From: a virus
Strand: one strand, 5' to 3'
Virus record (IMG/VR): IMGVR_UViG_3300017987_000326
Coordinates: 1 to 26,136 of that record
DNA length: 26,136 nt
Positions 1,666 to 25,677 of the stretch are shown here, one piece after another. The notes below the pieces were generated by a model. That model worked only from the letters and a program-made list of their open reading frames with translations. It was not told the DNA's origin and did not search any database. A program made the position numbers and the translations under genes. The first letter of the stretch is position 1. The number at the start of each line of letters is the position of its first letter.

Positions 1666-2154
1666 TCAGGACACGAGGCGGTAGCCGTCCGCCCGAGACC
1701 AGGTGAGCGCCTGCTGGCACTTGTGGGCAGGGCGAGACCCCACCAATGACAGGTGGATCCACCGCGGCGGATCCCCCTCGAGGATGAGCTGGCCGAACTT
1801 GAGCCCGCTCTCCAGGCGGATCCAGTCGAAGACGTCCACGAGCTCCACGCCCTGAACATGGAAGTCCGCAGCCTCGCCCTTCATGTGCTGGCTGGTAGCG
1901 GACCCCCCGATGTGGGCGTTCAGCTCCGGGCACCGGATCCCGCTGTGGACGAACACGGGCTGGCCGAAGTGGTCGCGGATGTGCTGCAGCATGGTGGCCA
2001 CGCGCTTGAGCTCGGAGCGGTGCTCCCAGGCGAACGCGAGGTTCTGTTTCGCGAACTCGGTGTGGCCGGTGTAGGCGAGCTCTTCGATGGTGAAGTTGGG
2101 CTCGAGCCTGGACGGGCGGCCGAGAGACATGTCGGACTCGGTTGGGCTGGTCAT
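1666..2154 (-). CDS. Endolysin, peptidase M15A family (D-Ala-D-Ala carboxypeptidase-like)
   Basis: This 162-residue protein carries the M15A zinc-peptidase pattern: SGIRCPELN at residues 71-79, the zinc motif SQHMKGEAADFH at 88-99 giving H90 and D97, and WIHLS at 132-136 giving the third ligand H134. Phage members cut peptide cross-bridges or stem peptides of peptidoglycan at lysis. There is no signal peptide or added wall-binding domain, so it is a short globular enzyme that would depend on the neighbouring holin. The start at 2154 is fixed by GGAGG 5 bases upstream; an in-frame ATG at 2175 and longer versions to 2511 run through the divergent promoter region and are rejected. Some phage tail-tip proteins carry the same fold, but the adjacent holin-like gene favours lysis. 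Confidence 0.88.
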   Translation of the reverse strand: MTSPTESDMSLGRPSRLEPNFTIEELAYTGHTEFAKQNLAFAWEHRSELKRVATMLQHIRDHFGQPVFVHSGIRCPELNAHIGGSATSQHMKGEAADFHVQGVELVDVFDWIRLESGLKFGQLILEGDPPRWIHLSLVGSRPAHKCQQALTWSRADGYRLVS

Positions 2155-2210
2155 AAACGCCTCCGTGCCCCACATGGTAGCACGCCCCACCCCGCCCCCG
2201 CACGTTCCCC

Positions 2211-2239
2211 TTGCACCTATCCGCAGGCGGTGGTATTTA
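2211..2239 (+). promoter_or_regulatory. Candidate promoter for the plus-strand cassette
   Basis: A TTGCAC box at 2211-2216 and a TATTTA box at 2234-2239 are separated by 17 bases, 41 bases upstream of the ATG at 2281. The -35 matches 5 of 6 consensus bases but the -10 matches only 3, so this is a weak call. The spacer contains CCGCAGGCGG, a small dyad that could be an operator. The region is divergent between the endolysin gene and the cassette, so a promoter somewhere in it is expected. Confidence 0.35.
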
Positions 2240-2280
2240 CATGGGGCGGCACCTTCACCCTGGCCGCAAGAGGAGAGAGG

Positions 2281-2691
2281 ATGAAACCCCTTCGAGTCAC
2301 CATCCCCACCAAGCACACTGCCCGCATCGACACCATCCGGCGGGCCATGGAGCGCGATCCAGACGAGGCTCGCGGGCAGATCATGCTCGGAGACGTGGTT
2401 CGCGAAGCCATGGTGATCGGCCTCGCCGCCATGGAGAAGCGGATCCCGGCGGTCACAGCCACCACGGCCAACGACAGCGACGGCCGCTACCGCGTCACCC
2501 TGCTCGACCATGGGCCGAAAAAGATCGCCTGCATCAAGGCGATCCGTGAACTGACCGGGCTAGGGCTCAAGGAGGCGAAGCAAGCCAGTGAGCAGGCTCC
2601 GATCACGCTGCTCACGACAGACGAGCGCGCCTTGGCGAACGAGTGGATCCGGCGCCTGCGCGAGACTGGCGCCTCGGCGGCGGTGTTCTGA
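2281..2691 (+). CDS. RHH-like N-terminus fused to ribosomal protein L7/L12 C-terminal domain
   Basis: This 136-residue protein has two parts. Residues 1-52 begin with a short beta-like strand (LRVTIPT) and two helices, a layout like ribbon-helix-helix DNA-binding proteins. After a linker of about 16 residues, residues 70-136 match the C-terminal domain of ribosomal protein bL12, including KKIACIKAIRELTGLGLKEA and the end ETGASAAVF. Residues I85, K86, R89 and K100 line up with E. coli L12 I69, K70, R73 and K84, part of the surface that recruits translational GTPases. The normal L12 N-terminal domain that docks on L10 is missing. AGGAG lies close upstream of the ATG at 2281, and the stop overlaps the next start as TGATG. 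L12 domains are known in some phage genomes; the role here (translation control, or a DNA-binding adaptor) is inference. The domain call is strong, the RHH call moderate. Confidence 0.85.
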   Translation: MKPLRVTIPTKHTARIDTIRRAMERDPDEARGQIMLGDVVREAMVIGLAAMEKRIPAVTATTANDSDGRYRVTLLDHGPKKIACIKAIRELTGLGLKEAKQASEQAPITLLTTDERALANEWIRRLRETGASAAVF

Positions 2692-18567: not shown

Positions 18568-19497
18568 TTAGACCGCGGAGATCACTTCGGTAGCCGCGCC
18601 GTTCTGGGCGATGGCGGCGGCCGAGTAGCCGGTGGTCACAACGGCGGTCTTGTCCTTGCGGGCGTAGCGGTCGAGCTCGGCACGCATCCAGCCCATCTGC
18701 ATGGCGTTGACCACGCTGGGATCGGGCACGGGGGCGCGGGTGAGCATGCCGAAGGCCTCGGGGCCGAAGACGCAGCCGGAGTAGTCGGCGCCACCACCGA
18801 CGGTGGTGATGATGCTGGAGTCGGCGGTGAAGATGTCGAGGTCGCCGTTGAGGAAGCGGCCCTTGTAGCTGTAGCCCTGGGAGCCGCCCATGAAGCCGCG
18901 CATCTCGGGCTGGTGTTCGATGGCGCCGCCGAGGGTGAGCGCGTCACCGGAGACGTCCTGCCACTGCTTGTCCTCGAGCATGGCCACCTGGATCCCGCGG
19001 GAGCCGGCGGCATGGTTGGTGTCCACGGCGGACTTGAGCACAGACCAGGACAGGGCCACGCCGGTGCTGCCGACCTGAGCAGTGATGGACGGGAACAGCG
19101 CGGCCACCTGAGCCATCAGGCGACGCTGGCCGCCGAGGAACAGGGCCAGAGCCAGGCGCTCCATGTCGATCTGACCGTCGAGAGCGTTGAACAGGCCGTG
19201 GACTTCCATCTGGCCGGTCTGACGCGCGGGGGTCAGGGTGTAACTGGTGCCAGACGGGGTGATCTCGTCCGCATCATCGTCCTCGGCTTCCTCGGCCAGT
19301 TGGTCGAGGCCCAGGCCGATGACGGGGACCTCGGCGGCAACGGCCTGGAGGAATCCAGACTCATCGCGCCAACCAGCCATCACGGTGGGGTGCATGAGGA
19401 ACGAGGTGTCGCGGTCGCCGATGGTGAGGACGTACTGCGCGATTGCGGTCGCGGCGAGCATGTCCGAGCCGGGGGATGTGCCAGTCTTCCAGGCCAT
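18568..19497 (-). CDS. Major capsid protein
   Basis: This 309-residue protein follows the scaffold gene in transcription order, the usual place for the major head subunit, and has the size and mixed alpha/beta character of an HK97-fold capsid protein. A helical N-terminus is followed by an acidic stretch (about 68-78), long helices around AALFPSITAQ and the central LSWSVLKSAV, then beta-rich segments and a C-terminal helix MGWMRAELDRYARKD. No attached protease or delta domain is seen; a separate scaffold precedes it. GGAG lies 7 bases before the ATG at 19497. Its own leader with direct repeats and the hairpin after it suggest separately boosted expression. The call is mainly positional. Confidence 0.75.
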   Translation of the reverse strand: MAWKTGTSPGSDMLAATAIAQYVLTIGDRDTSFLMHPTVMAGWRDESGFLQAVAAEVPVIGLGLDQLAEEAEDDDADEITPSGTSYTLTPARQTGQMEVHGLFNALDGQIDMERLALALFLGGQRRLMAQVAALFPSITAQVGSTGVALSWSVLKSAVDTNHAAGSRGIQVAMLEDKQWQDVSGDALTLGGAIEHQPEMRGFMGGSQGYSYKGRFLNGDLDIFTADSSIITTVGGGADYSGCVFGPEAFGMLTRAPVPDPSVVNAMQMGWMRAELDRYARKDKTAVVTTGYSAAAIAQNGAATEVISAV

Positions 19498-23048: not shown

Positions 23049-23323
23049 CAGAACCTCACAGTGCAGGACTTCATCAGCCCGCAGCAGACCAGGCCCTCGA
23101 CCCGCTGGCCGTTGCTGTTCGTGGCCGTGAACTCGGTGTGGAACGCATCGGACTGGCCGCAGCCGAAGTAGCGATAGCTGCCGGGCTCGATGTCGGTGAA
23201 ACCTTGGGCCTCGAGCGTGGACACCGTGCGATCCGGGTCGGTGCAGGACGGCATGACGAGGCCGACGACGACCATGCTGCCGATGACGAGCAGGAGGGCC
23301 CAAAAGAACTCGCTATCCATCAT
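23048..23323 (-). CDS. Small exported or membrane-anchored phage protein
   Basis: This 91-residue protein has an N-terminal hydrophobic stretch (about 7-24) ending in MPSC, near to but not a classical lipobox, so it is either a lipoprotein or a membrane-anchored protein facing the periplasm. The rest is small and Cys-containing: LEAQGFTDIEPGSYRYFGCG, then FTATNSNGQRVEGLVCCGL and KSCTVRF. This pattern (a beta strand, a single aromatic turn, and a CCGL-type end) recurs in unnamed small phage proteins I have seen, with no known role. ATGA overlaps at both ends. An exposed anti-superinfection or host-surface role is only a guess. Confidence 0.68.
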   Translation of the reverse strand: MMDSEFFWALLLVIGSMVVVGLVMPSCTDPDRTVSTLEAQGFTDIEPGSYRYFGCGQSDAFHTEFTATNSNGQRVEGLVCCGLMKSCTVRF

Positions 23324-23790
23324 CCCTCCACCGAAAGACTTAGGCCGTCGGCGGTGCAGGGCTCAAGCCTGACAGAATACGAGCGCGGATCGGTGTCGTG
23401 AGCCGCCACCACCACGGAACAGTGCCCGTGCATCCCGTCATCGATAGCCGACTCCACGGCCCTATTCACAGCATCGACGACACCGGGATCCCGAAAACCA
23501 AAGGCGTGCTCGCTGACCTGGAATGACAAGCCGCTGTCGTGGGTGATCGTGTGGTAGTCGCCGAGCAAATCTGGGCGAGAGGTGAAGCTCGGCATGACCT
23601 CAAAGATGTAGCGCGGAGCGTCCACGGGTTCGGAGGCCTGGCCTGCCGAAGCCAGCAACAGGTCCCTCGCCCACGTCGCCGTCCCCCACGAGACGGAGCC
23701 GCGGGGGCGTTGGCGCTCGGCTTCGGCGTCGAGCTTGATGCGCTCGTCGGTGGTGAGCGGGATGCGGAGGGTGTTGGTGCGGGCGGGCAT
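23320..23790 (-). CDS. Hypothetical protein with RHH-like N-terminus
   Basis: This 156-residue protein begins TLRIPLTTDERIKLDAEAER, a strand followed by a helix, and continues with a second helix around TATWARDLLLAS; this is the spacing of MobC-like or ribbon-helix-helix DNA-binding proteins (about 6-48). The second part (about 60-156) is mixed, with beta-like segments (YIFEVMPSF, GLSFQVSEHAFGF) and a His-rich stretch (MHGHCSVVVAAHD), and is unrecognised. The ATG at 23790 abuts the preceding stop and the stop overlaps the next start. It could regulate the cassette promoter, but no operator has been shown. Confidence 0.62.
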   Translation of the reverse strand: MPARTNTLRIPLTTDERIKLDAEAERQRPRGSVSWGTATWARDLLLASAGQASEPVDAPRYIFEVMPSFTSRPDLLGDYHTITHDSGLSFQVSEHAFGFRDPGVVDAVNRAVESAIDDGMHGHCSVVVAAHDTDPRSYSVRLEPCTADGLSLSVEG

Positions 23791-24180
23791 CTACTTGGCC
23801 TCCCAGCGCAGCACGGCTTCTTCGCCGTACCACCCATTCGACTCTCCGAACCAGCGGATCTGCATGTCACCGCCAGTGGTCCTGATCTCGTAGAAGGTCC
23901 ATGTGTAGGAGTCGTCGAGGTAGTCGCGCTCGGCGGGCGGGTCGTCGCTGTTGCTGCGGGCCTCGAATACGACGACCGTCTGACCGATGAGGCTTGCGGC
24001 GTCGCCGGTGAAGTCCTCGACCTCGACCGTTTCGCAGCAGTCCGGCTCGTGGAGCATTCGCATCGTCCCGCGATCCGTCTCGAAGACCACTTCCTCGCTG
24101 CCCTTCTTGAGCCCAGTGATCGACAGGATCTTCGCGCCGATGATGTGCTGGCACTGGTTCTCCCAGTAGTAGTCGCTCAT
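23791..24180 (-). CDS. DUF7448-like phage protein
   Basis: This 129-residue protein matches a widespread phage family of unknown function (DUF7448, recalled from its pattern). Recognisable pieces are HEPDCCETVEVEDFTGD at residues 44-60, SYTWTFYEI at 91-99 and QIRWFGESNGWY at 107-118. It is a small all-beta-type soluble protein with two adjacent Cys (C48, C49). GGAGG lies in front of the ATG at 24180, and it is the first gene after the strong promoter. It leads a coupled unit of six genes. The family name is from memory; the pattern itself is distinctive. Confidence 0.75.
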   Translation of the reverse strand: MSDYYWENQCQHIIGAKILSITGLKKGSEEVVFETDRGTMRMLHEPDCCETVEVEDFTGDAASLIGQTVVVFEARSNSDDPPAERDYLDDSYTWTFYEIRTTGGDMQIRWFGESNGWYGEEAVLRWEAK

Positions 24181-24211
24181 GATGCTTCCTCCTCTTGTCT
24201 GCATCATGGCT

Positions 24212-24243: not shown

Positions 24244-25677
24244 CTACCGCTTCTCCCTCGTCATATCCACCACGATGTAGCGCAGGGCATCGATCCCGTC
24301 CTTGTGCGGGTCCGCTCTGTCTCCGCGCCACTCCAGCAAATCCTCGTGCAGGTGAACGCACGCAGGGCTGAACTCGATCATGTAGGGATCCGCGACCATG
24401 AGCCGGTGCAAGATCTCGCAGCCGTCCCAGATGCTACCGTCGTACTTGCGCGGCACGTACATGCTCGACAGGGGCTTGGGCAGTTTCCGGCGCCAGGTGC
24501 GGGTCTTCTTCGGGTCCACGCTGCGGAGCCTGCTGAATGCCTGCATCAGGCGTAGGTTCGACTTCTTGCCGCCGTACTTGTCGCCGTGGTGGGCGCGGTC
24601 TCCGACCCAGTGATCGACATCCTCGAGGCGCAGGCCGTGGCGCTCAATCATGGACATGATTCCGCGAGCGTCGTCGTCCGTCTCTGTCCTGCCGTCAGCC
24701 TTGTACTCGTCCAAGACCCAGACCTTGCTCTTGCCCTTGACGATTGCGGTCGCGATCATGACGGCACGCTGGGCGCCGGGCTTGCTGCCGTGGTCGATGC
24801 CGATTCCGACGCGGGCGTTGAGTTCGGCCAGGCGCCCGAGGTCGGGCTGGTTGTGGAGGTGGGATCCGTAGGCGTCGAAGAACCTCGCGGCGGTCTCCGG
24901 AACCCTCGATCGGCCCATTCGGCAGTCTCTGACCTGGGCTGGGCAACCGCGCTCGAAGCGGTCGATCTCCTCCTGGGTCATCCATGGAATCTCTGCGAGG
25001 CCTCCGCGTGGGGTAACGGCATCGAGGGTGAGTGGAACCTGAATCTCTCCGGCGAACGTGGCTTTCGGATCGTCTACAAGGTCCCACAAATACTCGAGCT
25101 TGTGCGCGGTGCCGAGGGTTGGAGTGAACCCCATCCGCAGCTGGCCGTTACGACCGAGCAGGCGGGGCCACAGCTCAGCGAAGATCTGGTGTGGGAACGG
25201 CTCGTCTGCGATCACGTAGTGGTAGCGAGGGCCGGCAAGGCGTTGCGCTCCAGCGCTGAACGTGCCCATGCGCAGAACAGAACCCTTGCCTGGGCCGTCG
25301 ATCACGTCGTAGATCGGCATTCGCTGGCCGGCTAACTGGCCGTCCTGGAAGTGGACCTTCTCGCGGAACCATCGCTTATCAACCGAGTCCCAGAAGTATT
25401 TGATAGTCGAACCGAGCTGTTGCCATGTCTCGCCGAACAGCCCGACGCTGACGGGGCCATCTGCTACCGGGTTGGCAAGGGTTCCCTCGATGGCGCGACG
25501 AGCGTATTCGGCGAGCACGACCGATTTCCCGGCGCCGTTGCAGCCCCAGAGCACGAGCAGGGTGCGCGGGTCGTTCAGGAACGCAGACTGTGGGTTGGTC
25601 CAGCGCCGGAACGTTCCGGACCTGTGCCAGTGCCGCCTTGCGATCGCTGACGAGTGCTCGCGGGGGTCGAGGAGCAC
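24244..25677 (-). CDS. terL: Terminase large subunit (packaging ATPase and nuclease)
   Basis: This 477-residue protein has all expected motifs. The ATPase part shows Walker A GCNGAGKS at 45-52, Walker B YHYVIADEP with D158 and E159 at 152-160, and the coupling motif GFTPT at 183-187. The RNase H-like nuclease part has D295 in GIDHG, D323/E324 in the VLDEY strand, and a C-terminal D in KDGIDALRYIV (about 459-469). The enzyme pumps DNA into the head and cuts concatemers. Length is normal. The start is a GTG at 25677, three bases after the stop of the gene ahead; there is no strong ribosome site, so it may be translationally coupled. Packaging strategy cannot be judged from these motifs by eye. 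Confidence 0.93.
   Translation of the reverse strand: MLLDPREHSSAIARRHWHRSGTFRRWTNPQSAFLNDPRTLLVLWGCNGAGKSVVLAEYARRAIEGTLANPVADGPVSVGLFGETWQQLGSTIKYFWDSVDKRWFREKVHFQDGQLAGQRMPIYDVIDGPGKGSVLRMGTFSAGAQRLAGPRYHYVIADEPFPHQIFAELWPRLLGRNGQLRMGFTPTLGTAHKLEYLWDLVDDPKATFAGEIQVPLTLDAVTPRGGLAEIPWMTQEEIDRFERGCPAQVRDCRMGRSRVPETAARFFDAYGSHLHNQPDLGRLAELNARVGIGIDHGSKPGAQRAVMIATAIVKGKSKVWVLDEYKADGRTETDDDARGIMSMIERHGLRLEDVDHWVGDRAHHGDKYGGKKSNLRLMQAFSRLRSVDPKKTRTWRRKLPKPLSSMYVPRKYDGSIWDGCEILHRLMVADPYMIEFSPACVHLHEDLLEWRGDRADPHKDGIDALRYIVVDMTREKR

Follow-up and report, generated by a model that had tools for sequence, protein, structure and literature searches.

The locus considered here encodes a small phage protein, P0001, in which the C-terminal domain of ribosomal protein bL12 (L7/L12) follows a basic N-terminal half. 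It raises the question of what this N-terminal half is, and whether such a protein would act on the ribosome or away from it.

The P0001 gene and its phage context

The window, that is, the whole stretch of DNA that was analyzed, is the entire IMG/VR virus record IMGVR_UViG_3300017987_000326, with 26,136 bases and a GC content of about 65%. Tape-measure and M15 endolysin matches in Pfam and PHROG profile searches indicate that the record comes from a tailed phage. No tRNA genes were found in its 26,136 bases. The P0001 gene heads a chain of four genes with overlapping ends (Table 1). Its codon-position GC is 0.65/0.49/0.84, resembling that of the terminase, portal, and capsid candidates of the record, and the antisense frame gives 0.84/0.47/0.68. 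The Shine-Dalgarno-like sequence, the codon bias, and the operon argue that the gene is real.

Table 1. Features of the P0001 locus and their basis
Feature	Position	Strand	Basis or remark
Endolysin, peptidase M15_3	1666..2154	-	Divergent from the L12 gene; start chosen at 2154, listed open reading frame extends to 2511
Intergenic stretch	2155..2280	.	Separates the divergent endolysin and L12 genes
Shine-Dalgarno-like AAGAGGAGAGAG	2268..2279	+	Read from the sequence
L12 C-domain protein P0001, 136 aa	2281..2691, stop included	+	Open reading frame, PF00542, codon-position GC
Basic N-terminal segment, residues 1-53	2281..2439	+	Extended at 1-9, followed by a helical hairpin; RHH resemblance seen by eye, unproven (models, pI)
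Linker, residues 54-69	2440..2487	+	Probably flexible; pLDDT <50 at 55-64 (model)
bL12 C-terminal domain, residues 70-136	2488..2688	+	Profile, model, alignment; face K81, I82, I85, K86, R89, K100
Second operon gene, 73 aa	2691..2912	+	Start overlaps the L12 gene stop (TGATG); product without family match in profile searches
Third operon gene, 156 aa	2909..3379	+	No assigned family; CxxCxxCC E 0.032, below cut-off
Fourth operon gene, 71 aa	3369..3584	+	Cysteine pairs precede a coiled-coil-like part; matches fall below cut-off

The terminase and capsid candidates have hardly any detectable kin, suggesting a poorly sampled phage lineage. The terminase candidate (24247-25677, minus strand) has a single partial match (24%) among 50,697 phage records, and the capsid candidate (18571-19497, minus strand) was guessed from gene order. 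Neither has IMG/VR kin in an exact 8-residue peptide scan, which reaches close kin only. The record also encodes a Tad2-like (Thoeris anti-defence 2-like) domain at 9-395 on the plus strand (E 4.1e-26) and a DUF7448/phrog_2650 protein at 23794-24207 on the minus strand (E 1.9e-19 and 8.1e-36).

The C-terminal half and the bL12 fold

The first-pass annotation had assigned residues 70-136 to the L7/L12 C-terminal domain, and both profile and fold comparisons bear this out. PF00542 matches residues 71-133 with 56.6 bits against a cut-off of 25.9 (E 3.4e-15), and phmmer matches bL12 chains in the PDB with a best E of 2e-11. The AlphaFold2 model was built with the C-domain pieces of 19 relatives, taken from 158 loci (L005-L162), while the N-terminus entered without relatives; over residues 71-136 its block means of pLDDT are 94-97. 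It superposes on E. coli 1ctf at 1.0 A (Z 13.8, 68 residues aligned), on 1dd3 at 1.1 A (Z 13.6, 72 aligned), and on 8yeq at 1.8 A (Z 14.1, 71 aligned). Among the matches listed from a viral fold library, the high-ranking ones that carry names are phage L7/L12 proteins and ClpS.

The residues of the factor-binding face are also conserved. Alignment to a Salmonella L7/L12 equates K81, I85, K86, R89, and K100 of P0001 with K65, I69, K70, R73, and K84, in agreement with the four equivalences proposed earlier from the sequence (I85, K86, R89, and K100); the bL12 positions follow E. coli mature numbering. The C-domain is 40% identical to Salmonella bL12. Identity is concentrated in residues 81-100, which correspond to helices 4-5 (15/20, versus 13/47 elsewhere; Fisher p 4.5e-4), a contrast that does not single out a function in this phage because these helices are the best kept part of bL12 generally. 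In bL12, a conserved positively charged site on helices 4 and 5 of the C-domain is described as the place where IF2, EF-Tu, EF-G, and RF3 bind (PMC6753160). Judged by sequence and model, residues 70-136 of P0001 are a genuine bL12 C-terminal domain with an intact factor-binding face.

ClpS has the same overall fold as the L12 C-domain, and ClpS chains match the model at Z of about 9-10, as they might if the domain served as a degradation adaptor. However, the sequence and surface of P0001 are those of L12. In the fold list most ClpS rows are 9-13% identical to P0001 (one plant ClpS1 is 20%), versus 31-46% for bacterial bL12 rows, and Pfam at E<=1 gives Ribosomal_L12 and one weak unrelated family but no ClpS. 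With the L12 face intact as well, an adaptor role is extremely improbable.

The N-terminal half

P0001 shares its fold and factor-binding residues with bL12, but the dimerisation and uL10-docking domain of bL12 (L12_N) is not detectable in its sequence. PF16320 (L12_N) has no match in the record at E<=10. TIGR00855 scores 53.4 bits against P0001, below its equivalog cut-off of 84.4, and aligns from residue 56 on. A profile made from bacterial bL12 N-domains gives -2.3 bits, a score equalled by 477 of 1000 shuffles and by 375 of 1265 controls, the latter being the N-termini of distinct ATG open reading frames of at least 80 amino acids in all six frames of the viral loci, and hence a mixture of genes and chance frames. 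HHalign with a single-sequence query gives the bL12 N-domain a probability of 0.1%.

The segment that precedes the C-domain has few matches of any kind. In a phage collection 13 records match P0001, all over the C-domain only; the three that were examined are ordinary bL12, and three more are annotated as L7/L12. Relatives in genome contigs number at least 578, and the 80 loci retained from these resemble ordinary bL12, a few of them truncated where a contig stops. No close relative of P0001 was found in IMG/VR with the exact 8-residue peptide scan, which detects close kin only. A tblastn search with residues 1-53 found no match in phages and one match in plasmids, at E 6. Residues 1-70 and 1-60 have no Pfam, PHROG, or NCBIfam match (the Pfam scan of residues 1-70 was run at E<=1 with filters on).

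Two other leads for this segment were followed and dropped. The phylum of a Myxococcaceae MAG was chosen for a supposed resemblance that did not hold up, and of 140 genomes from it two match at E<=0.01, neither convincingly. Residues 14-50 have a TPR-like likeness, but TPR_19 gives no match at E<=10, and the other TPR profiles were covered by the Pfam scan, in which residues 1-70 are without a match. Designed TPR proteins are matched by phmmer with a best whole-sequence E of 1e-5, which arises from their repeats; the single stretches listed for the top-scoring protein have i-Evalues of roughly 200 or higher. A single TPR-like genomic match of the N-terminus reaches E 0.0067 (43% over 37 amino acids), and the match at locus L171 lies antisense to a long open frame.

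The first-pass annotation held that the docking domain had been replaced by a ribbon-helix-helix (RHH)-like segment. The first part stands insofar as PF16320 and TIGR00855 detect no docking domain; the second has not been confirmed. Under this explanation residues 1-53 would form an RHH dimer on phage DNA, for example on the intergenic stretch upstream of the gene for autoregulation, and the L12 heads would be an effector or a tether for translation GTPases. The likeness to RHH regulators of the CopG/Arc/NikR type is seen by eye as a strand-helix-helix-like pattern, in which an alternating strand, LRVTIP, is followed by a helix and then by GDVVREAMVIGLAAME. In addition, residues 1-53 are basic (pI 9.7), and the gene is the first after the divergent intergenic stretch. 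However, RHH_1 (PF01402) and RHH_3 (PF12651) have no match in the record at E<=10, and an RHH-like N-terminus is unsupported by any profile tried. In the intergenic stretch no sigma-70-like site was found, and repeats, including inverted ones, are only 6-7 nt long.

Custom profiles gave scores near those expected by chance. An RHH profile from nine bacterial loci scores 2.5 bits on residues 1-53, which 35 of 1000 shuffles equal, and one from 20 bacterial loci scores 0.6 bits on residues 1-58, equalled by 42 of the 1265 controls and 80 of 1000 shuffles. When the strand with the first helix and the second helix were scored as two pieces, with a long connection between them cost-free, both halves fell in register with the profile (15 of the 1265 controls do as well, as do 18 of 1000 shuffles), which is a weak hint only because this test was chosen after the first had been seen. 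HHalign with a single-sequence query gives RHH (the nine-locus set) a probability of 1.2%. Fold searches with the N-domain alone were uninformative, with a best Foldseek E of 3.7 and a best VIA Z of 3.2 among 13 chains. Four of the 13 have a VIA Z of at least 2, and one of these is a chain of NikR, an RHH protein; its own Z of 2.0 is at noise level.

The models show an extended basic N-terminus followed by a helical hairpin. Folded alone as a single sequence (pLDDT 85), the N-terminal segment is extended at 1-9, with helices at 10-25 and 27-54, and in the whole-protein model the helices are at 10-25, 27-33, and 36-53. There is no strand, and the connection between the helices is partly helical and atypically long for RHH proteins; these models are of monomers, and the RHH strand pairs only in the dimer. 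Overall, an RHH regulator is an unlikely explanation of P0001.

A different protein of the same phage, encoded at 23320-23790 on the minus strand, also has an N-terminus that is RHH-like by eye. It scores 3.3 bits with the RHH profile, higher than P0001 and equalled by 9 of the 1265 control N-termini; its second half scored nothing in the piecewise test.

L12 domains in phages and the possible role of P0001

L12 C-domains are known from some phages, as the first-pass annotation noted. Mizuno et al. (2019) described phage L12 domains joined to varied partners, so that their mosaic nature is already published (PMC6375957), and huge phages likewise encode L7/L12 (PMC7162821); the term "L12" is absent from the available text of a jumbo-phage review (PMC7824862). 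A scan of IMG/VR with two peptide patterns from an L12 C-domain alignment, confirmed by tblastn similarity to the C-domain of P0001, gave 76 viral loci (L087-L162). After 14 proteins identical to another were dropped, 62 distinct proteins remained. Their starts were taken as the first ATG of the frame, so some of the N-termini are uncertain.

Most of these proteins have no detectable docking domain. PF00542 is found in all 62 and PF16320 in 12, and our own N-domain profile likewise finds 12. One of the other 50, L133, is truncated by the end of its contig, where L138 also starts. Since L140, a near twin of the truncated L133, does have the docking domain, the stricter count is 49. All 62 proteins could be anchored in the alignment used to compare the face. 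At the position of R73, 47 of the 50 proteins have R and 3 have K; at K84, all 50 have K; at K70, 48 have K and 2 have R; and at K65, K or R occurs in 43. Without L133, R73 is R in 46 and K in 3, and K84 is K in 49. Conservation of R73 and K84 was not forced by the search, since both lie outside the two peptide patterns (K70 and K65 fall inside one of them), but a tblastn match to the domain of P0001 was also required of every locus, which leaves some bias. The 50 proteins without a detectable docking domain keep R73 and K84, and by sequence P0001 joins this phage class of "detached stalk heads".

The partners of the viral L12 domains are diverse. The only Pfam families shared by two or more of the 62 at E<=0.01 are the two L12 domains. 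By pattern, a module of the type MIPxEHK...YGxEEGxxLW...KGxIFFAMLTG precedes the C-domain in 14 of the 62 (L108, L116, L124-L126, L128, L129, L136, L137, L148, L154, L157, L159, and L161), and the L12 domain lies near the N-terminus in 17 of the proteins without a docking domain. In six distinct proteins (L099, L102, L103, L104, L109, and L112) the C-domain lies close to the N-terminus and a conserved GEDELANEILQLVLAEKLRR-type tail comes after it; L102 and others have a C-terminal EILQLVL tail. A zinc ribbon precedes the C-domain in L120:5863-6393 (Zn_Ribbon_1 and Zn_ribbon_3 match 1 of the 62, the member being assigned by eye), and the L12 domain occurs in further arrangements as well. The 247-residue protein L114:5761-6504 has a start that is winged-helix-like by eye, without Pfam support, and then the C-domain; it is a possible parallel for a DNA-binding-like partner.

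P0001 resembles the proteins of Mizuno et al. in having an L12 C-domain with foreign flanks and in the conserved EF-G/EF-Tu contact residues (PMC6375957), but its partner is a basic helical hairpin, which also differs from the YGxEEGxxLW module, zinc ribbon, and EILQLVL tail of the IMG/VR proteins. An RHH partner was not found by Pfam (E<=0.01) in any of the 62, so the exact partner of P0001 is new in this sample. The suggestion that the fusion as such looks new was too strong, given the published mosaic proteins (PMC6375957) and the 50 of 62 without a docking domain. "DNA-binding" and "helix-turn-helix" are absent from the available main text of PMC6375957. A literature search found no paper joining RHH, ribosomal protein, L12, phage, and fusion and, among the matches listed and judging by title, no other paper on phage L12 fusions. 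The present analysis adds that most of the collected phage L12 proteins show no docking domain yet keep the face, and it adds one more partner.

In the samples covered, which are IMG/VR and one bacterial phylum, detached L12 heads seem to be typical of phages. Of 80 genomes sampled from the phylum to which an Acidimicrobiales MAG belongs, PF00542 is present at E<=1e-5 in 78; two have a second place with this domain, one of them a contig-end fragment.

Two helices, a hinge, and a C-domain are also the layout of bL12 itself. The N-terminus could thus be a degenerate L12_N that has kept the ability to dock on uL10, and P0001 would then join host ribosomes; a 2019 study detected a phage bL12 peptide in ribosomal fractions (PMC6375957). 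PF16320 is nevertheless empty for P0001 at E<=10, whereas 12 of the 62 viral proteins match it, and the N-domain profile score is one that many controls and shuffles reach. A divergent but functional ribosomal bL12 is accordingly improbable, even more so than an RHH regulator.

The reading that we favor, and to which we give about an even chance, treats P0001 as a detached stalk head whose factor-binding face engages translational GTPases, or some other ligand, away from the ribosome. It would be a non-ribosomal protein in which a flexible linker joins the displayed bL12 C-domain to a small, basic, helical N-domain. The N-domain would stand in place of the uL10-docking domain and is probably an oligomerisation or anchoring part. 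Through helices 4-5 the protein would bind EF-G, EF-Tu, IF2, and RF3 off the ribosome, and it could compete with or supplement the host stalk, altering host translation during infection. We infer this binding and its effect on translation from the conserved face and the model. In the 2019 study, attempts to purify the tagged phage bL12 together with ribosomes failed, yet a peptide appeared in ribosomal fractions (PMC6375957), so that such proteins may act on or off the ribosome.

The ligands could also be something other than translation GTPases. As decoys, the L12 heads might titrate defence toxins that dock on the stalk, such as the CARF-RelE ribonuclease Cami1, or other stalk ligands. Cami1 belongs to type III CRISPR and is known as a toxin that is "ribosomal stalk-captured" (Mogila 2023, cited in PMC11229360), and its ribosome complex 8phj is among the fold matches of P0001. 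The many phage records that carry L12 heads without a detectable docking domain, and the Tad2-like gene on the same contig, fit a decoy, but PADLOC finds nothing for P0001 or for the Tad2-like protein. Tad2-like domain proteins are moreover common in phages. There is only a slim chance that P0001 is such a decoy.

A more elaborate possibility, which we consider doubtful and put on a level with the decoy, is a phage RHH-type dimer that carries two L12 heads. Placed on phage DNA or nearby nascent mRNA, it would act where phage genes are expressed, concentrating translation GTPases there or catching toxins that dock on the stalk, such as Cami1. If this were true, the stalk surface would have been transferred from the ribosome to a nucleic-acid-bound regulator.

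P0001 is small enough for NMR, and the question of binding is directly testable with standard factors. Many phage records hold the translation-factor-binding head of the stalk without its docking domain. Should such heads prove to bind EF-G, EF-Tu, IF2, RF3, or toxins that dock on the stalk, phages would have in them a general means of steering or protecting translation.
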